Source: an uncultured Mailhella sp. (GTDB taxonomy: Bacteria; Desulfobacterota; Desulfovibrionia; Desulfovibrionales; Desulfovibrionaceae). Taken from it: a stretch of DNA of 64,000 nt. Under the pieces are notes generated by a model. It made no database searches and was not told the origin of the DNA. It worked only from the letters and a program-made list of their open reading frames with translations. Of this stretch, positions 55,345-64,000 are shown piece after piece (position 1 is the first letter of the stretch; each line of letters starts with the position of its first letter). A program made the position numbers and the translations under genes. The DNA lies in contig NZ_CALUWY010000004.1 in the NCBI RefSeq assembly GCF_944324615.1, positions 47,046-111,045 on the forward strand, read 5' to 3'.

Positions 55345-56076
55345 TCAGGAAAAGGCCTGCCACAGGCAGACCAGCCCGGCGGCGGCGATGACGAGCATGA
55401 GCGCCCTGCGGAAGAGATCCACGCGGATGCGTCTGACCACGGGGAAGGCGCACAGCGCACCGGCGACGCAGGCGGGGATGCCGTACATGGCGTACCTTAT
55501 GACCTCGGGCGTGTAGAATCCGGCCTTTGCCTGAAGAAGGCAGGTGAAGAGGCTGCGGATGAGGAAGAATATGCCGAGCGTGCCCAGCACTTCGCGCGGT
55601 TCCCAGCCCCGGTACAGGGCATAGGCTCCGGCGGGCGGTCCGTCGAAGGATATGGCCGTGCCGAGCAGGCCTGCGCCGAATCCCGCTGCGCCTCCGGCTA
55701 TCCAGGAATCCTTTTTTCTGGCCCCGGGTCTGGCCGCGCGCTGCCAGAGAACATAGACGATGAGAAGAATGCCTACCGCGCCCTGAAGCACTGCGCCGGG
55801 AAGCATGCGGAGCATGGCAAGGCCCGCAAAGGAACCGGGCAGAGCGCCGAGCAGAAGCGGCCACAGGGCGGGCACGCGGCAGTGGCGGAAGTACAGGAAT
55901 GCAAGGCTTCCGTCCATGGCGGCATTCAGAATGCAGCTTAAGGGAATGACCTCGTGCATGGGCAGGAACATGGCGGCTACGGGAACGGCGACCATGGCCC
56001 CCCCGATGCCGGTGACGCCGGAGACGAAGCCCCCTGCGAACCAGCAGAAAAAAACGATGAGGGAAGTGAATTCCAT
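55345..56076 (-). CDS. TauE/SafE (TSUP) family membrane permease
   Basis: 243 residues with about eight membrane segments and the family hallmarks GFVSGVTGIGGAMVAVPVAAMF (first repeat) and GFGAGLLGTAISFDGPPAGAYALY (second repeat). Relatives export sulfite, sulfoacetate or other C2 sulfonates, or move small anions. TGGAGA precedes the ATG. It lies downstream of the amino-acid permease on the same strand, but a good terminator separates them, so shared regulation is not certain. Confidence 0.85.
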   Translation of the reverse strand: MEFTSLIVFFCWFAGGFVSGVTGIGGAMVAVPVAAMFLPMHEVIPLSCILNAAMDGSLAFLYFRHCRVPALWPLLLGALPGSFAGLAMLRMLPGAVLQGAVGILLIVYVLWQRAARPGARKKDSWIAGGAAGFGAGLLGTAISFDGPPAGAYALYRGWEPREVLGTLGIFFLIRSLFTCLLQAKAGFYTPEVIRYAMYGIPACVAGALCAFPVVRRIRVDLFRRALMLVIAAAGLVCLWQAFS

Positions 56077-56170
56077 GCTTTTCTCCAGAGGGCGCTGTCG
56101 CCCGCGTTGGGAGGCGGCGGAAAGGGGCGGCGTCCCGGAGAGCGGGAGCGGTCCGGCCCGGAGCTTCTCA

Positions 56171-56213
56171 GAAAAAAGCCGGCCTTTCCCGGGCGCGCAG
56201 GGGAAAGGCCGGC
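56171..56213 (-). terminator. Terminator after the APC permease gene
   Basis: GCCGGCCTTTCCC (56178-56190) / GGGAAAGGCCGGC (56201-56213); six T on the minus strand. Confidence 0.85.
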
Positions 56214-56248
56214 GGGAGGAAACCCCGGCCCGCAGGCCGGGGTGTTGC

Positions 56249-57751
56249 TCAGGCCTGAAGTTCTTTTTCAGGCTGATTCTGAAGGGAATTTTTCTTGAAC
56301 AGCACCGGGATGTCGGCGCCGCCGAGAATGTTGTGGGAGAGTTCTTCCGTGGAAAGATCGCTCCACACCTTCTTGTTGGAGTAGTAGAACACGAAGCCGA
56401 GAATCACCCAGAGAGCCAGCACGCAGCGGGGCGCGAAGGAGATGTAGGCGGGGGAACCGGGCGTGAGCAGCAGCACCAGGGTGAGGATGGAGCAGATGGT
56501 GCCCATGATGCAGCAGAACAGTCCGAGGTTCTTTCCGGCGGCATTGCTGCTGCTCAGGATGGCGCGGCGGGCGACGAGGCAGGTGAAGAGGTAGCCGATG
56601 CCGGTGCCCACGGAACTCATGTCCACGGTCCAGCCCACGGCGGAACGGCCGGCGAAGGGGGTGAACAGGGCGAGAATGGCGGTGAAGAGAATGGCGTTGT
56701 AGGGGGTGTGGTAGGTGGGGTGGATGCGGCCGAACCATTCGGGCAGGATGCGGCCTCTGGCCATGGCGAGAAGCAGACGGGAGGCGGCCACGAAGAAGCC
56801 GTTGATGCCGGTGCACACCGCGCCGAACACGGCGCAGGCCAGAATGATGGAGCCGAACTTGCCGAAGGCCAGCGTGGCCACATAGCCGGTGGCCCAGGCA
56901 TGGCCGCCCGCATTGCGCATTTCTTCCATCTTGGCCAGCAGTTCAGGGTAGGGGATGGCGATGGCCACGCCCAGCATGACCATGGCGTAGAGCATCATGC
57001 CCACGAAGATGGAAATGACCATGATGTTGCGGCAGCGGCCGGGATCGAAGGCGAATTCTTCCGAAGCCTGCGGCACGGTGTCGAAGCCCACGAAGAGGAA
57101 GGGAGAAAGGGCAAAGATGCTGATGACGCAGGCGGCCTGGGACTTGTTTTCCGCAAACAGGGGAACGAGATTGCTGATACCGGCGGAATCAAGGGAGTTG
57201 GCGCCGAAGAAGAAGGCGATGATGCCGAAGGTGAGCATGAAGGCGAGGATGAGCTGCAGCTTGCCCGCCATGCCCACGCTGCGGTAGTTCAGCAGGCCGA
57301 AGACAAAGGTACCGGCCGTCATGAGCAGCACTTCGCCCATGTACACCTTCCATCCCGCGATGGTGTACAGCTCTCCGAATTCAAAGACTCCGGGGAACAG
57401 GAAGCGGAAAATGAGCGAGAGCGCCGCAATGTCTATCATGACGATGGCCACATAGCCTATGACCAGCGCCCAGCCGCAGATGAAGGACGCGGTAGGCCCG
57501 AAGCCGATATAGGCATAGGTGAAGGCGCCGCCCGCCACGGGGGCGTATTTGACCATGTAACTGTAGCATACCCCGACGAAGGAAATGAGTATGGCACCGG
57601 CAAGGAAGCCGAGCAGCGTGCCGAGAGGGCCGTCGGAGGGAAGAAAGAGGTCGCCCGGAAGAACGAAGCAGCCCCAGCCGACGATGGAACCCAGCGCGAG
57701 AGCGCAGACCTGCATGGGAGAAAGGGATTTTTTAAGTTTTGCTTCAGACAT
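56249..57751 (-). CDS. APC-superfamily amino acid permease
   Basis: Proton- or exchange-driven amino acid/amine transporter, 500 residues with about 12-13 membrane segments. The first helix carries ALALGSIVGWGCFVLPGDLF (the GxG substrate-backbone loop). Later segments include PVAGGAFTYAYIGFGP and LSPFLFVGFDTVPQASEEF (TM6 region). Start at 57751 (MSEAKLKKSLSP) with AAGGG upstream; the frame is open to 57901 but that would run into the promoter leader. A -24/-12 promoter lies 155 bp upstream, so it belongs to the sigma-54 regulon with the glycyl radical enzyme. The substrate is unknown, probably an amino acid or amine. Confidence 0.88.
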   Translation of the reverse strand: MSEAKLKKSLSPMQVCALALGSIVGWGCFVLPGDLFLPSDGPLGTLLGFLAGAILISFVGVCYSYMVKYAPVAGGAFTYAYIGFGPTASFICGWALVIGYVAIVMIDIAALSLIFRFLFPGVFEFGELYTIAGWKVYMGEVLLMTAGTFVFGLLNYRSVGMAGKLQLILAFMLTFGIIAFFFGANSLDSAGISNLVPLFAENKSQAACVISIFALSPFLFVGFDTVPQASEEFAFDPGRCRNIMVISIFVGMMLYAMVMLGVAIAIPYPELLAKMEEMRNAGGHAWATGYVATLAFGKFGSIILACAVFGAVCTGINGFFVAASRLLLAMARGRILPEWFGRIHPTYHTPYNAILFTAILALFTPFAGRSAVGWTVDMSSVGTGIGYLFTCLVARRAILSSSNAAGKNLGLFCCIMGTICSILTLVLLLTPGSPAYISFAPRCVLALWVILGFVFYYSNKKVWSDLSTEELSHNILGGADIPVLFKKNSLQNQPEKELQA

Positions 57752-57905
57752 GACGTTGCCCTTGAGTGATGTAGGGGAAACAGAAGCTTCAAAAGAGGAA
57801 GTTCTGTGCGGGTACTCTCCTGAGGGAGCGATGCAGCGGACAGACACAAGCAAGCGGTTTTCTATGCGATGAGCCCATAGAAAATGTGAGTTGCGGAACA
57901 TGAAA

Positions 57906-57920
57906 GCAAAAAGCGTGCCA
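57906..57920 (-). promoter_or_regulatory. Sigma-54 promoter of the APC permease
   Basis: Minus strand TGGCACGCTTTTTGC, an exact match to the TGGCACG-N4-TTGC consensus. Predicted start near 57894. Confidence 0.85.
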
Positions 57921-58036
57921 ACATTCCGTTTCTGGAGAACTCCCCGCTAATCCTTGAAAAACAAAGGATTAAAAATGTGTGCACGAGACTGCCTGAAAGC
58001 GGAGAAAAAGAAAAGTACAAAAAATGAAAAAAATTT

Positions 58037-58050
58037 TTTCTTTTTAGAAA
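58037..58050 (-). promoter_or_regulatory. Candidate enhancer site (UAS) for the permease promoter
   Basis: Minus strand TTTCTAAAAAGAAA, identical to the site at 59905-59918. It is centred about 150 bp upstream of the predicted start, a usual distance for enhancer-binding proteins. Confidence 0.6.
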
Positions 58051-58157
58051 GAAAAATGTGAAAATAAGAGCGAACGGGAAGAGGGAAAGAAGGGAAAAAC
58101 CGGAACGGCAGGGTGAAACAGCCTCTGATTTGTTATTTTTTTCTTTAATTCGCCGGT

Positions 58158-58197
58158 AAAAAACGCTCAGCGCGGCCCGGCAAAGCCGCGCTGAGCG
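58158..58197 (-). terminator. Terminator after the sigma-54 activator gene
   Basis: CGCTCAGCGCGGC (58164-58176) / GCCGCGCTGAGCG (58185-58197), then six T on the minus strand. Confidence 0.8.
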
Positions 58198-58374
58198 GGG
58201 AAAGCGTATGCCGGCGCCTTTTTCGTGCGCCGCGCATGGTTTTCCGGCGCGGGAAGCTGCGCGCCGGAGACTGCGGAAGAGATTTTTCAGGGGCACGGCC
58301 GCACGGCACGGAAAAGCGCGGTTTTTCTGCGCAATATTCCTGTAACGGCGCGTTTTTCCCGGCGTTTTCCGGGA

Positions 58375-59847
58375 TCAATAGTCGTCTTCGCTTATGCCGA
58401 GCTGCTTCATCTTGTAGCGCAGGCCGGGGCCGGTGAGCTCCATGATGCGCGCAGCCTTGGAAATGTTGCCGCCGGTGACGCGCAGTACGTTGCGGATGCA
58501 GCGCGATTCAAAGGCGTTGAGCCTTTCCTTGAGGGGAATGACGCTGTTGCGCTTCACGTCGCGGTAGTCGTCCGGCACGGAGATGGGTTCCTTGCCCATG
58601 GGGGCGAGGCCTGTGGAGACCTTGCGGTTTCCGAAGCAGGCGTCGCGGAACTGGCGGGGCAGGCAGTCTTCATCAATGACGGTGCGGTCGCCGAGAAGGG
58701 CCAGGGAACCTTCCATGACGTGCAGAAGCTCGCGGATGTTGCCGGGCCAGGAATATTCCCAGAAAAGCTTCATGACCGCGTCGGAAACGCGGACATCCTC
58801 CGCCGCGTTTTCCGGACGCAGCAGGAAGGAGGAGACCAGAAGGGGAATGTCTTCGCGCCTCTCCCGCAGGGGCGGAACGCAGATGCCCACCACGGCGAGG
58901 CGGTAGTAGAGGTCGTTGCGCAGTATGCCTTTTTCCACGGCGGTGAGCGGAGGTTCGTTCAGGATGCTGACGACGCGTACATCCACATCCTTTTCCGTAT
59001 GGGCCCCGAGTCTGCGTATCTTCTTTTCCTGAAGCACGCGCAGAAGCTTGGCCTGAAGGCCGAGAGGCATGGAGTTGAGCTCGTCGAGAAGCAGGGTTCC
59101 GCCGTCGGCCTTTTCAAAAAGGCCGGGCTTGTCCCCGGCGTCGGTATACGCGCCCTTCGAGGTGCCGAACAGGATGCCTTCCAGGAGATTTTCCGGGATG
59201 GCCGCACAGTTCACGGCAATGAAGGGGCGCTGCCGCCGGGGGCTTGCCGCATGCAGGGCCTGGGCGAAAAGTTCCTTGCCCGTGCCGTTTTCACCCCAGA
59301 TCATCACGGGGACGGCGCTTTTGGCCGCCACTCTGGCGTCGCTTATGGCTCCGCGCAGGGCAGGGTCGCGCCCGATGATGCTTTCAAAGGTGTACCTTGT
59401 GTCTTCGCTGGAAGGCGCGGGCGGGCGTGTGCGCGCCCGCGTCTCCCCGGTGAGAAGCGCGCTGTCCACCCAGATGGTGAAGGCCAGAACGCCGTCCTTG
59501 CGGCCGTTCTCGAAGAGCGGGAAAAAGTCCGTCACCGAGGAGAACAGGGAATTGTTGATGGTCTTGTACCAGTAGGCCTTCCTTAAAAGCGGCACCCCCC
59601 GGCTCAGGCATTCCATGGTGGGGATGCAGTCCATTTCGTTGGGCACATAAAGCTCGGTGATGTGCTTGCCCACCACCGATCCGGTGAAGCCGTCCACCCT
59701 GCGCTGGATGTCGTTCATGTAGACACAGGTGCCGGTGGCGTCCACCACGGCCACTCCTATGCTCATGCGATCCCATACCGACCGCATGGCAGGGCTCATC
59801 ACGGTCGACCTGCTGACATTGGTGAAAGTATCCGTACCGATGAACAT
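58375..59847 (-). CDS. Sigma-54-dependent activator with N-terminal PAS domain
   Basis: 490-residue enhancer-binding protein, RocR-like. A PAS sensor spans about 20-130 (WDRMSIGVAVVDATGTCVYMNDIQRR). The AAA+ domain (about 150-385) has Walker A GENGTGKE, a loop reading GAYTDA where GAFTGA is usual, and Walker B LLLDELNSM. The Fis-type helix-turn-helix is at the C-terminus (GGNISKAARIMELTGPGLRYKMKQLGI). AGAGGA before the ATG. It sits between two sigma-54 promoters (permease and glycyl radical enzyme), with identical 14-bp sites near both, so it very likely controls them. The Gly-to-Asp change in the sigma-54 contact loop is notable. Confidence 0.9.
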   Translation of the reverse strand: MFIGTDTFTNVSRSTVMSPAMRSVWDRMSIGVAVVDATGTCVYMNDIQRRVDGFTGSVVGKHITELYVPNEMDCIPTMECLSRGVPLLRKAYWYKTINNSLFSSVTDFFPLFENGRKDGVLAFTIWVDSALLTGETRARTRPPAPSSEDTRYTFESIIGRDPALRGAISDARVAAKSAVPVMIWGENGTGKELFAQALHAASPRRQRPFIAVNCAAIPENLLEGILFGTSKGAYTDAGDKPGLFEKADGGTLLLDELNSMPLGLQAKLLRVLQEKKIRRLGAHTEKDVDVRVVSILNEPPLTAVEKGILRNDLYYRLAVVGICVPPLRERREDIPLLVSSFLLRPENAAEDVRVSDAVMKLFWEYSWPGNIRELLHVMEGSLALLGDRTVIDEDCLPRQFRDACFGNRKVSTGLAPMGKEPISVPDDYRDVKRNSVIPLKERLNAFESRCIRNVLRVTGGNISKAARIMELTGPGLRYKMKQLGISEDDY

Positions 59848-59904
59848 GGGAGAATCCTCTCTTTGGGGAAAGAGTGATAAAATTTTCCCATGTATAAAAA
59901 TTCT

Positions 59905-59918
59905 TTTCTAAAAAGAAA
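59905..59918 (+). promoter_or_regulatory. Candidate enhancer site (UAS) for the glycyl radical enzyme promoter
   Basis: TTTCTAAAAAGAAA, a 5-4-5 inverted repeat identical to that at 58037-58050. It is about 132 bp upstream of the predicted start at about 60044 and 58 bp upstream of the activator gene, so it may also mediate autoregulation. Confidence 0.6.
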
Positions 59919-60017
59919 GTTTTTTTATAGCCTCGAAAAAATTTCACCGGGAAAAACACGCGGGAAAATCATAATAAATAGTATTATTTCAATATGTTAT
60001 ATATAGCATGGGAATTT

Positions 60018-60033
60018 TGGCACGCTTTGTGCA
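60018..60033 (+). promoter_or_regulatory. Sigma-54 promoter of the glycyl radical enzyme operon
   Basis: TGGCACGCTTTGTGCA, matching the consensus at every position but one, with correct GG-GC spacing. The coding sequence starts 62 bp downstream. Confidence 0.85.
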
Positions 60034-60095
60034 TTGCCATGGGCACAAGCAAGCGATTTTTCCCCGGCCTCTAACATTTCCAACAGGAGACACCC

Positions 60096-62541
60096 ATGTC
60101 CGTCATAGAGTTCACTCCCTCTGCCCCCGTGGAAGGGCAGGGTTACGCCATCAACTGGGACACTGCCGAACAGCGCGTCTCGGAACTGAAGGACTTCCTC
60201 ATGACCGCCCCCCAGGTCATGGACCCGGAAAGGCTTCGCTGCCTTCTGGACGTGTACGAGGAATTTGCCGGAGAATCCACCCTGTACATCCGTGCAAAGC
60301 TCTTTGAGCGCGTGCTTCTGACCAAGAAGATCTTTCTCGACGGCAACCCCATTGTGGGCACGCTCACGGGCATTCGCTGCGGCGTGAATCCCCTATCCGG
60401 AATGGAACGTTTCCTGGATCAAGGACGAAATGCAGCTCGCCAAGATGACCTCCCTCGGGGAAATGAAGATTCCCCAGGAGACGGAAGAGCTTCTGGAAAA
60501 GGTGTACAAGAAGTGGAAGAACCGTACCTGCATCGCCCTGAACAACAAGATGTACAAGGACAAGTACGGGGTGAATCCCGCGCAGTATTCCAAGGCGGGC
60601 ATGTACTACGACAACGTGAGCGTGGCTTCCGGTTCCGGCATTGCCGATTACCCCAAGGCGCTCAACAAGGGCCTGCGCTGGGTGGTCGATGATCTGAAAC
60701 AGCGCCTGCGCGACTGCCCCACCACCCTGGACAACAAGGAACGTCACGACCTTTACCGTGCCATGATCGTGGCCGTGGAAGCCGTCATCGCCCATTCCCA
60801 CCGCTATGCCGAGCTTGCGGAAAAGACGGCCGAAGCTGAAACCGATCCGAAGAACAAGGCCGAACTTCTGGAAATCGCGGAAATCTGCCGCCGCGTGCCC
60901 GAATACCCCGCCCGCAACTTCCGCGAAGCCATCCAGTCCTTCTGGTTCGTGCATCTGGCCATTGAAGTGGAACAGATGGCCTGCGCCACCTCTCCCGGCC
61001 GTTATGGCCAGTACATGTACCCCTTCTACAAGAAGGACATCGAGGAAGGAAAGCTCACCCGGGAGCAGGTCATCACTCTGCTCAAGTTCCAGTGGATCAA
61101 GCACATGGAACTCGGCGAATACCAGGGCGGCTCCTATGCCAAGACCCTGTCCGGCCATACCGGCCAGACCATCACCATCGGCGGTGTGGATGCCGACGGC
61201 CGCGACGCCAGCACCGAGCTGGAAGAACTGCTGCTGGAAACGCAGATCCGCATGCGCGGCATTCAGCCCACGCTGACGCTGCTCTATCATCCCAAGCTCA
61301 AGCCCTCGTACCTGAACAAGGTGGTGGAGTGCATCCGCGGCGGTTCCGGCCAGCCCCAGATTCTCAACAACACCGTGGTCATCGAGCGCAACCTCGCCCG
61401 CTTCGCCCAGTATAAGGACGGCATCACCCTGGAAGACGCCCGCAACTGCGGCAACTACGGCTGCGTGTCCACCGGCATCTGCGGCAAGGGAAGCTTCATC
61501 ACGCAGGAAGACCAGCCCTGCCTGGCCAAGGTGGTGGAACTTCTGCTCAACAACGGCAAGGACCCCTCCACCAAGAAGGTGGTGGGTGTGGAAACCGGCG
61601 ATCCGCGCGAATTCAAGGACTTTGAAGAACTGTACGGAGCCTGCAAGGAACAGCTCAGGCACCTGTTCACCATTTCCCGCCACCATTCCGACCTCAGCCA
61701 GATGGCGCGTCTGCAGGTGGTGCCCAGCGTGTTCCGTTCCGTCATGTACGACGGCTGCATCGAGAAGGGCATGTGCGAGGAAGCCGGCGGCACCCGCTAT
61801 CCGCAGGTGAACCCCATCATGACCGCCGGTGTGGATGCCGCCAACTCTCTGCTGGCCATCAAGCATCTGGTGTTCGACACGAAGAAGATCACCATGGATC
61901 AGCTTCTGGAAGCGCTCAAGGCCAACTTTGAAGGCTACGAAGACATCCGCAAGATGTGCTTTGAAGCGCCCAAGCACGGCAACGACTATCCCGAAATCGA
62001 GGCCTTCGTGCAGCGCTTCTACCATGACGTGGACGAAATCCACAGCTCCATCGGCCCGGACTGCTTCGGTTACAGAACGCCCCTGGATGCCTATTCCCTC
62101 TCGTACCACAACTACTTCGGTTCGCTCATGGGCGCTCTGCCCACGGGCCGCAAGGCGGGCGTCGCCCTTACCGACGGCAGTGTGTCCGCCATGCCCGGCA
62201 CCGACCACGAAGGCATCACCGCGCTCATCAAGTCCGGCGCGGAAGCCATCGACACCGTGCGCTACGGGGCCAACCACTTCAACGTGAAGTTCCTGCCCTC
62301 CGCGCTGGAAGGCCCGCAGGGCGCGCGCAATCTCATTGCGCTCATCAAGACCTACTGCGATTACGGCGGCTCGCACATCCAGTTCAACTGCGTCAGCTCC
62401 GACACTCTGCAGCATGCGCAGGACAACCCGCAGGAATACAAGGATCTCGTGGTCCGCGTGGCCGGCTTCAGCGCCTACTTCACCCGCCTCGACCGCGGTG
62501 TGCAGAACGAGATCATCAAGCGCACGGAATATGCGGGCTGA
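60096..62541 (+). CDS. Glycyl radical enzyme (pyruvate formate-lyase-like), frame interrupted by one extra C
   Basis: Catalytic glycyl radical enzyme of unassigned substrate. As sequenced the frame breaks at the CCCC run 60390-60393. Removing one C restores VNPYPEWNVSWIKDEMQ and a continuous 814-residue protein. The thiyl loop is NYGCVSTGICGKG (Cys456 in restored numbering) and the radical motif RVAGFSAYF (Gly790) is near the C-terminus. The GCVE motif typical of diol, choline and hydroxyproline lyases is absent, so those activities are not supported. It is followed by its activase and a HesB-like selenoprotein. The extra C could be a sequencing error, phase variation in a homopolymer, or real inactivation. 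ATG at 60096 follows ACAGGAGA. Confidence 0.85.
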
Positions 62542-62568
62542 CCGCAGGAAAGCCTGAGGCACAGAAGC

Positions 62569-62637
62569 GGGCGGAGCAGCGGCTCCGCCCATGACAGACA
62601 ACCGGCCGGAGGATGGGTGGGAAAGACATCCTCCGGC
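62569..62637 (+). other. Two stem-loops between the glycyl radical enzyme and its activase
   Basis: GGGCGGAGC-AGCG-GCTCCGCCC (62569-62590) and GCCGGAGGATG / CATCCTCCGGC (62605-62615 with 62627-62637). Neither has a T run. They probably protect the upstream message or lower activase expression relative to the enzyme. Confidence 0.6.
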
Positions 62638-62670
62638 CCGCAAAACGGCCGCCTTCGGGGAGGAAGGATC

Positions 62671-63564
62671 ATGAGCCAGGGAACCGTGTACAATATTCAG
62701 CGCATGTCCACCAAGGACGGGCCCGGTATCAGAACCACCGTGTTTCTCAAGGGCTGCCCGCTGCACTGTCTCTGGTGCAGCAATCCCGAATCCCAGCTTT
62801 TCACTCCCCAGCTGCTTTTCTTCCGCAACCTCTGCACGGGTTGCGGCGCCTGCGTCAGAGCCTGCCGCTCCGGCGCTTCCTCCATGGAAGAGGGCGTTTC
62901 CCGCCTGGACAGGGAACAGTGCCGCGACTGCGGCGCCTGCGCCTTGGTATGCCCCACCAGGGCAAGGGAAATGAGCGGACGGCTCATGAGTGTGGAAGAG
63001 GTGATGGCCGTACTGCGCAAGGACGCGCTTTTTTATGAAAATTCCGGCGGCGGCGTCACGTTCGGCGGCGGGGAGCCCACTTCCGGCGGTCAGTTCTTTC
63101 TGGATCTTGTGGAAGCCTCGGTTCTGGAAGGCTGGCACGTCGCCGTGGACACCTGCGGTTTCTGCCCGGAGGAGCGTTTCCACAAGGTCCTGAAGATGGC
63201 GGATCTTTTCCTTTTCGACATCAAGCACATGGACCCCGAACAGCACAAGGCCCTCACGGGGCAGGACAACGCCCTTATTCTCCGCAACATGAGGGCGGCG
63301 CTTCTCTCCGGCAGGGAAGTGCATATCCGCATGCCGCTCATGCCCGGCCTTAATGACTCCGAGGAAAACATCACTGCCATGGCGGACTTTTTCGGAACCT
63401 TCGGTCGCCATGAAATAGAAATCATGCCGTGTCACGCCTTCGGCCGCAACAAGTATGCGGCGCTCTCCCTGCCCTTCCCGGCAGTGGAGCAGTACACGCC
63501 GGAGGCTCTGCAGAGGGTGCGCGAGCGTTTTGCAAGGCACGGCCTTTCCACCGTTATCGTATAA
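62671..63564 (+). CDS. Glycyl radical enzyme activating enzyme (radical SAM, with two extra 4Fe-4S clusters)
   Basis: Abstracts H from the radical glycine of the upstream enzyme. 297 residues: the radical SAM motif CPLHCLWC (CX3CX2C) near residues 31-38, a ferredoxin-like insert with CTGCGACVRAC and CRDCGACALVCP near 57-105, then VTFGGGEPTSGG (SAM-binding GGE), DTCGF and FLFDIKHMD. The clustered insert is typical of activases of non-PFL glycyl radical enzymes. Start at 62671 (MSQGTVYNIQRMSTKDGPGIRTT) with GAGGAAGG; the frame extends to 62617. The selenoprotein gene starts 15 bp after its stop. Confidence 0.93.
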   Translation: MSQGTVYNIQRMSTKDGPGIRTTVFLKGCPLHCLWCSNPESQLFTPQLLFFRNLCTGCGACVRACRSGASSMEEGVSRLDREQCRDCGACALVCPTRAREMSGRLMSVEEVMAVLRKDALFYENSGGGVTFGGGEPTSGGQFFLDLVEASVLEGWHVAVDTCGFCPEERFHKVLKMADLFLFDIKHMDPEQHKALTGQDNALILRNMRAALLSGREVHIRMPLMPGLNDSEENITAMADFFGTFGRHEIEIMPCHAFGRNKYAALSLPFPAVEQYTPEALQRVRERFARHGLSTVIV

Positions 63565-63579
63565 AAGAGGATGCTGACC

Positions 63580-63879
63580 ATGTTTACCGTGACCATCGGC
63601 GAAGAGATGCTGGAAAAGCTCCGCGCCATGCTGGAAGACGAGGATGAGGAAGCCTGCGTGCGCCTTCGTGAATACAAAGTCGGGGGCGGATGACACTGCA
63701 AGATCGTGCTCGGTCTGGGCATGGATGAAATGGATGAGGATGAGGACGAAAAGATTGTCGTGGAGGATGTCCCCTTCATTGCCGACAACGATTTTCTCAC
63801 GAAATACGGCAAGGCCTTTGAGCTGAGCTTCAACGAAGACAGGCAGGTGGTGCTTACCGCGCTGAACGCGCAGATCTAG
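63580..63879 (+). CDS. HesB/IscA-like selenoprotein with in-frame UGA (Sec38)
   Basis: 99-residue A-type iron-sulfur carrier-like protein that ordinary gene calling would cut in two. From ATG 63580 the frame reads MFTVTIGEEMLEKLRAML..., meets TGA at 63691-63693, and continues CKIVLGLGMDE...VPFIADNDF...FELSFNEDRQVVLTALNAQI to TAG. The UGA stands in VGGG-U-HC, where IscA/HesB proteins have the first cluster cysteine (VxGGGC). The two C-terminal cysteines of IscA are missing. AGAGG lies 10 nt upstream. A SECIS-like hairpin follows the UGA (listed separately). HesB-like selenoproteins are a known family in Sec-using bacteria. Operon position suggests a link to cluster delivery for the activase, which is inference. 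Confidence 0.85.
63691..63726 (+). promoter_or_regulatory. UGA selenocysteine codon with bacterial SECIS-like hairpin
   Basis: TGA at 63691-63693. Stem ATCGTGC (63703-63709) pairs with GCATG-AT (63719-63726, one bulged G at 63724, one G-U pair). The nine-base loop TCGGTCTGG carries GGU at 63712-63714, 18 nt after the UGA, the same spacing as in E. coli fdhF. Confidence 0.75.
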
Positions 63880-64000
63880 GCTCAGGACTCATTAATTGCC
63901 AAAAGGGTAAAAAGTTCTTATTATCGGCATAGGGAGGATGCCATGAAGGAACTTTTTTATCTTTCTCATGAACAGATTGCTCGTATCAAACGCTACTTTC
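63880..64000 (+). mobile_element. Left end of an IS5-family insertion sequence, cut by the window edge
   Basis: The unrelated sequence begins just after the selenoprotein stop codon, and a transposase-like start follows at 63943. CTAG at 63876-63879 could be the target duplication, and GACTCATTAATTGCC nearby may belong to the terminal repeat. The right end is outside the window. Confidence 0.5.
63943..64000 (+). CDS. IS5-type transposase, N-terminal fragment
   Basis: The first 19 codons read MKELFYLSHEQIARIKRYF, the characteristic opening of IS5/IS427-group DDE transposases (M..LF.L...Q...I..YFP). GGGAGG sits 5 nt upstream. The rest is beyond the right edge, so integrity is unknown. Confidence 0.6.
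   Translation, partial: MKELFYLSHEQIARIKRYF

Follow-up and report, generated by a model that had tools for sequence, protein, structure and literature searches.

The 64,000-nucleotide stretch of DNA from an uncultured Mailhella sp. analyzed here (the window; G000:C4:47046-111045) is the end of contig C4, contig and window stopping together, and near that end it carries a 99-codon frame whose single in-frame TGA is almost certainly read as selenocysteine (Sec). The frame opens with an ATG at 63580, has its TGA at residue 38, closes with a TAG at 63877-63879 and starts 15 bp after the stop codon of a radical SAM activase, a frame and spacing that the first-pass annotation of this DNA had placed correctly. 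The predicted product is a member of the ErpA-related family NF033940 (NCBIfam) and in all probability works with the glycyl radical enzyme (GRE) system encoded upstream of it. It is this GRE partner of the small gene that is the new part of the finding.

Selenocysteine at residue 38

We compared 68 copies of the small gene, taken from 45 fetched loci and the window after removal of two repeat loci: 41 have the TGA, 24 have Cys at the same site and three have neither. All 41 TGA-bearing copies have the TGA at the identical codon and none elsewhere before the gene end, a TGA at codon 61 or beyond having been counted as a stop when the copies were extracted. The single-contig genome G018 has the TGA too, and it is therefore no artefact of one assembly. 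The genome from which the window derives encodes SelA, SelB, SelD (which itself has a TGA) and a tRNA-Sec with the anticodon TCA. In a search of the order that covered 348 genomes, a small-gene copy over the cut-off was present in 52, of which 44 have at least one TGA copy; SelA was found in 42 of those 44, versus two of the eight genomes with only TGA-less copies over the cut-off. Both TGA genomes in which SelA was not found are drafts (84 and 96% complete), and G030 (83% complete), one of the eight, has a TGA copy that falls below the cut-off and likewise gave no SelA match.

Downstream of the TGA is a predicted selenocysteine insertion sequence (SECIS) hairpin. Counting the T of the TGA as nucleotide 1, a 5-bp stem formed by nucleotides 17-21 and 27-31 around a loop at 22-26 is complete in 39/41 Sec copies versus 2/24 Cys copies, and the loop is GGUCU in 36/41 and 8/24, respectively. 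There are compensatory changes within the stem across the Sec copies: the pair 17-31 is TA in 37, AT in two and AC in two, 18-30 is GC in 36, AT in four and GT in one, 20-28 is TG in 35 and TA in six, and 21-27 is CG in 38 and TA in three, while 19-29 is invariant. When synonymous codons were redrawn using those found elsewhere in the same genes, the mean number of complete stems was 5.9 and the maximum 15 (2000 draws); controls in which the stem was slid along the sequence gave none. Sec and Cys copies favor different codons at Leu+6, Gly+7 and Leu+8; at Gly+9 the difference is weak (31/35 Sec versus 8/14 Cys) and at Val+5 there is none (31/34 versus 5/5), with Fisher tests being descriptive only, as they count related sequences as independent.

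Folding gave a more modest signal. The isolated 28-nt hairpin piece of the window has a z-score of -2.45 (4/200 shuffles as good), those of the window and three relatives together range from -2.45 to -3.17, and the equivalent piece of the genome's own Cys copy folds no better than shuffles (z 1.22). The longer 45-nt piece that the first-pass annotation had singled out (63691-63735) preferred another stem when folded alone (z -0.70, 45/200 shuffles as good), and because this fold did not single out the hairpin we rely on the comparison across relatives, which is far stronger than the folding score. The geometry that had been proposed stands as regards the GGU, which lies 18 nt after the TGA, a UGA-to-GGU distance that we take to equal that of the E. 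coli fdhF SECIS; the strict stem, however, begins 13 nt after the TGA and not nine. When 56001-64000 was scanned with Rfam, none of the nine matches exceeded the gathering score.

It is exceedingly improbable that the TGA is a plain stop within a decayed gene, or between two short open reading frames. The public record of the Mailhella massiliensis homologue, P0020, does start after the TGA, which speaks for a stop, but 41 copies share a TGA at one codon with no other in-frame stop, the hairpin covaries and is under synonymous constraint, and the Sec genes are present; as the hairpin comparison across the Sec copies contradicts it, this explanation was rejected. Other public entries are also irregular at this site: predictions P0009 and P0019 are without the TGA stretch, as if a gene caller had spliced it out, and in metagenome proteins P0002 and P0004 the Sec position is occupied by Leu and Trp, which may be real or an artefact of translation. 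With the Sec machinery located, Cys common at the TGA site among homologues, and the TGA and hairpin conserved, the selenoprotein claim of the first-pass annotation is upheld, and short of chemistry we regard it as close to certain.

Association with one clade of glycyl radical enzymes

To describe the context of the small gene we compared 64 GREs from the order, these being the matches listed that share at least 44% identity with a Mailhella GRE, and sorted them by identity into group 1 (at least 71%), group 2 (54-63%) and group 3 (44-51%). At most two candidates were scored per genome, with matches to 1e-100 only, limits that leave out short GRE fragments. "Downstream" was defined as on the same strand and within 2.7 kb, a limit of our own choosing. 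Among the matches listed, the small gene lies downstream of 56 of the 64 GREs (50 by hits over the cut-off), namely 36/37 in group 1, 15/19 in group 2 and 5/8 in group 3, where all five group-3 and one of the group-2 associations depend on hits below the cut-off. Conversely, 71 of the 80 copies over the cut-off sit downstream of such a GRE, and six of the nine unlinked copies (in G167, G106, and G194) are on contigs with a GRE fragment at their start or end. Beyond the 64, the GREs among the matches listed have no more than 39% identity. In a sample of 395 genomes of the phylum, five were over the small-gene cut-off: four belong to the same family as the window, and the fifth, G361, has a GRE, a TGA copy and a Cys copy in a row; GREs at 48% (G348, G428) and 43% (G553, G574) identity in the same sample had no small-gene match over the cut-off.

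The first-pass annotation had proposed that the small protein is dedicated to the activation of a radical enzyme. Dedication to a radical enzyme is borne out by gene order across the order, whereas partnership with the activase is so only in part. The activase lies between the GRE and the small gene in the window and in L137, L138, L141, and L142, but L146 has the small gene between the two, and six group-2 loci (L081, L093, L098, L099, L100, and L129) combine a divergent activase with a small gene that has kept its place just 3′ of the GRE. As the position of the activase varies, we consider the link of the small gene to the GRE to be no weaker than that to the activase.

The GRE of the window scores below every NCBIfam equivalog cut-off shown (HypD, CutC, IAD, HPAD, HpsG, HpfG, and PFL), with 514.2 versus 678.2 bits for the best subfamily model and 492.5 versus 1100 for the best equivalog. 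In the 28 GREs aligned, which represent all three groups, the catalytic Cys is followed by V-G (14), V-S (nine), V-A (four) or V-T (one), so that the active-site Glu two residues past it is absent in 28/28, whereas V-E stands at this place in four aligned PDB chains (HypD, CutC, and two others). In IslA, this Glu (E470, beside C468) is required and the E470Q variant is inactive, according to the excerpt consulted of PMC8473560. The replacement of V-E, in view of the essential Glu of IslA, suggests that this clade likely uses a different chemistry. Comparison with solved structures did not reveal a substrate, the best relatives being several different GREs with similar scores, although the neighboring permease and TauE/SafE genes hint at a putative amino-acid-like or sulfonate substrate.

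Tandem copies and gene neighborhood

Within 2.7 kb downstream of the group-1 GREs there is a single TGA copy in 22 cases, a TGA copy followed by a TGA-less copy in 11, the reverse order in two and a TGA-less copy only in one. The window was counted as single, but its genome has a Cys copy on contig C83, 143 bases in, and upstream of that copy is the reverse complement of the 19-bp insertion element end found at 63876-63894 of the window. As this shared end borders both copies, the Sec copy and the Cys paralogue were probably split by an insertion element that now lies between the two; the C4-C83 join is inferred and not proved, because the far side of C83 bears the same end. The same insertion element end, with a CTAG border, was seen at the end of C4 and at both ends of C83 (L069).

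The Cys copies look like former Sec genes, as features of the hairpin persist in them: Gly at the loop codon is GGT in 9/16, versus 18/163 for the other Gly codons of the same genes, and the Cys copies of L076 and L080 retain the whole hairpin. A tree of 65 copies, which is based on few columns and has unsettled bootstrap values, has 11 Sec/Cys changes, at least seven of them on starred branches. In three group-2 loci (L096, L098, and L129) a third ErpA-like copy, without Cys or Sec at the conserved site, follows the others.

It is possible, though doubtful, that the Cys copy acts as a selenium switch and takes over from the Sec copy under selenium shortage, an explanation that is compatible with the functional readings considered below and under which the twin layout would carry no implication of a heterodimer. 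TGA and TGA-less copies do occur together in 24/52 genomes, and an excerpt of PMC11097638 describes Methanococcus maripaludis as swapping Sec and Cys isoforms upon selenium depletion. However, neighboring copies may also both be Cys (G179, which has no SelA match) or both have the TGA (G175), which argues that the retention of more than one copy does not depend on the residue.

The features of the locus are compiled in the table. The start of the activase, ATG 62671, was picked by eye, the longest open reading frame beginning at GTG 62617; the protein scores 353.5 bits against TIGR02494 (cut-off 174.35). A one-base difference from relatives, within a run of C at 60380-60395, splits the GRE between two frames; it may be genuine or an assembly error. 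An open reading frame of the C_GCAxxG_C_C redox protein family PF09719 is present downstream of the activase, ahead of the Sec copy, in L079 and other loci, 10/42 in total by approximate calls of which one member was scanned.

Features of the window around the small gene. Counts of neighboring genes are over 43 fetched loci, some of which are too short to reveal the regulator, permease or transporter.
Feature	Coordinates	Strand	Basis
ErpA-related (NF033940) selenoprotein gene, 99 codons, one TGA	63580..63879	+	NCBIfam 142.9 bits versus cut-off 65
In-frame TGA, predicted Sec38	63691..63693	+	One codon across 41 TGA-bearing copies; Cys in 24 paralogues
Predicted SECIS hairpin, stem 63707-63711/63717-63721 (5 bp), loop GGUCU 63712-63716	63707..63721	+	Comparative, folding
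Radical SAM GRE activase, two extra 4Fe-4S motifs	62671..63564	+	Radical_SAM 75 bits, Fer4 in two stretches
GRE, larger open frame, 703 aa	60430..62541	+	PFL-like 488.3 bits, Gly_radical 102.8
N-terminal part of GRE in another frame	60096..60392	+	Frame break near 60390 versus relatives
Insertion element end: 19-bp end 63876-63894, open reading frame start 63944	63876..64000	+	At contig end
Sigma-54 dependent regulator, divergent from GRE	58375..59847	-	Relative at ≥45% identity in 34/43 loci
Amino acid permease	56249..57901	-	Relative in 10/43 loci
TauE/SafE family transporter	55345..56076	-	Relative in 24/43 loci, 24/24 with group-1 GRE

Fold and proposed role of the small protein

The small protein was initially annotated as HesB/IscA-like. 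Its score against the Pfam IscA/HesB model (23.3 bits) is just under the cut-off of 26.3, and the more specific identity of a HesB-like selenoprotein is not sustained, as both models for that group failed by a wide margin (24.9 bits versus 85 for NF038090 and 15.1 versus 66.35 for TIGR01911) and the UxGP motif is missing. The AlphaFold model (pLDDT 91.2) predicts an IscA-type fold: the top structure in Foldseek is E. coli IscA (E 2.3e-4), and a second structure aligner placed DsrR (10.6), IscA (10.3) and SufA (10.0) as ties. By sequence, a search of the PDB gave no relative at 1e-3 and two weak matches up to E 1, one of which, HI1723, has the same fold. An alignment of 32 sequences has ten invariant columns, of which position 38 alone is a Cys/Sec site; Cys26 is present in 35/41 Sec and 14/24 Cys copies, and four of the five Sec copies in group 2 lack it.

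In A-type carriers the C-terminal CxC provides cluster ligands, and its absence here weighs against a classical carrier. It is missing from 41/41 Sec copies and was found in only 1/24 Cys copies, on the basis of which we rejected a canonical three-Cys A-type carrier. The cluster carrier of the first-pass annotation thus stays putative, in agreement with the predicted fold but not with the usual ligands; the small protein is better described as a predicted carrier fold with one conserved ligand. A search of the genome for Pfam Fe-S_biosyn (PF01521) gave no match at 1e-3, but as it also missed the ErpA-related and HesB-like genes, it is weak evidence that an ordinary A-type carrier is missing.

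On balance, we lean toward the small protein, with its TGA read as Sec, being a dedicated iron-sulfur (Fe-S) accessory factor for the upstream GRE and activase, probably by delivering or holding an Fe-S cluster for the radical system. A possible mechanism, which we consider plausible though somewhat short of probable, is that a labile Fe-S cluster would sit between the two subunits of a dimer, either Sec-Sec or Sec with the tandem Cys paralogue. This arrangement would suit a protein with one conserved chalcogen per subunit (Sec38/Cys38) and no CxC tail, and monothiol glutaredoxins likewise hold a cluster between subunits with one Cys each. The cluster may then be handed to the activase, which needs several, or the small protein may dock on the GRE; selenium could serve as a softer ligand, as a better leaving group, or as a ligand restorable after oxidation. 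More tentatively, it is feasible that a Sec+Cys two-subunit selenol factor is a standing part of a new GRE system without the catalytic Glu, where it would load or guard the radical machinery.

A carrier is our best guess among three roles, the others being a GRE subunit and a redox helper. As an accessory subunit, which we consider unlikely, the small protein would dock near the glycyl radical domain and control radical formation or protect the radical, as is thought of the small subunits of benzylsuccinate synthase (BSS) and 4-hydroxyphenylacetate decarboxylase (HPAD). The six loci with a divergent activase, where the gene is just 3′ of the GRE, would fit such a role, as would its place between GRE and activase in L146 and the presence of relatives beside the GREs of all three groups. 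However, the known small subunits differ in fold and are Cys-rich Fe-S proteins that have several Cys ligands but lack Sec, whereas here a single Sec/Cys is set in a predicted IscA-type fold, and the gap between GRE and small gene is at least 988 bp in 35/36 group-1 loci, which fits an activase lying between them. The likeness to BSS and HPAD is that both possess GRE accessory proteins (PMC8473560, in excerpt). Still less probable is a selenol redox or repair protein, in which no cluster is carried and Sec38 would act on a thiol or persulfide within the GRE system, reducing or protecting it. The single universally conserved Sec/Cys, the absent CxC tail and the place of DsrR among the top structures are in keeping with such a protein, and many uncharacterised selenoproteins are thought to have redox functions, in the portion of PMC13188914 consulted; against it, a second thiol is not conserved, Cys26 being variable, and the fold matches Fe-S carriers.

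Of the known systems, the HesB-like selenoproteins (TIGR01911, NF038090) are similar in their small size, their kinship to IscA/HesB and a Sec that follows two Gly residues, and the NF038090 members of the same genomes also form tandem TGA/Cys pairs. They differ in their UxGP motif (PMC13188914, as excerpted), where the small protein has U-H-C-K, and the NF038090 members read have a Cys-rich tail that it does not; no GRE match was found in six fetched NF038090 loci. NF038090 is over its cut-off in 47/52 genomes. The window's genome has such a pair, with Cys-rich tails, in L147 (G000:C5:50131-50807), and the twin layout recurs in several genomes (e.g., G008, G014, G016, G018, G099, G301, G304, G313, and G330). 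Within NF033940, where cluster insertion is implied by the family name, a Bilophila wadsworthia Cys homologue, P0082, is likewise a member (111.5 bits). By its name, P0018 is a Cys copy from Pseudodesulfovibrio mercurii. The small protein differs from the IscA/SufA/ErpA carriers in its missing C-terminal CxC and in a context tied to one enzyme clade. In the latter respect it resembles ATC-III (IscA-Nif), described in an excerpt of PMC2682760 as an A-type protein that accompanies one enzyme system, nitrogenase, although here the neighbor is a GRE, the chalcogen is often Sec and the CxC tail is absent.

HesB-like selenoproteins have been in selenoproteome lists since the 2000s (PMC1794560, in part), and the functions of most listed selenoproteins are called unclear in the excerpted text of PMC13188914. 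Among the titles and abstract openings of open-licence PMC papers that were searched, none reported a link of a selenoprotein, ErpA or HesB protein to a GRE. The gene order described here ties a related family to one enzyme clade, mostly within one bacterial order, and thereby gives it a concrete candidate client. It further draws attention to a GRE clade of sulfate reducers and gut bacteria that is uncharacterised and has an unusual active site, and exposes a public annotation (P0020) that misses the N-terminal part of the small protein. The adjacent Sec and Cys copies, together with the Cys copies that still bear a hairpin, make Sec/Cys exchange testable in one operon. If true, the two-subunit selenol factor would be the first link of selenocysteine with glycyl radical enzymes.
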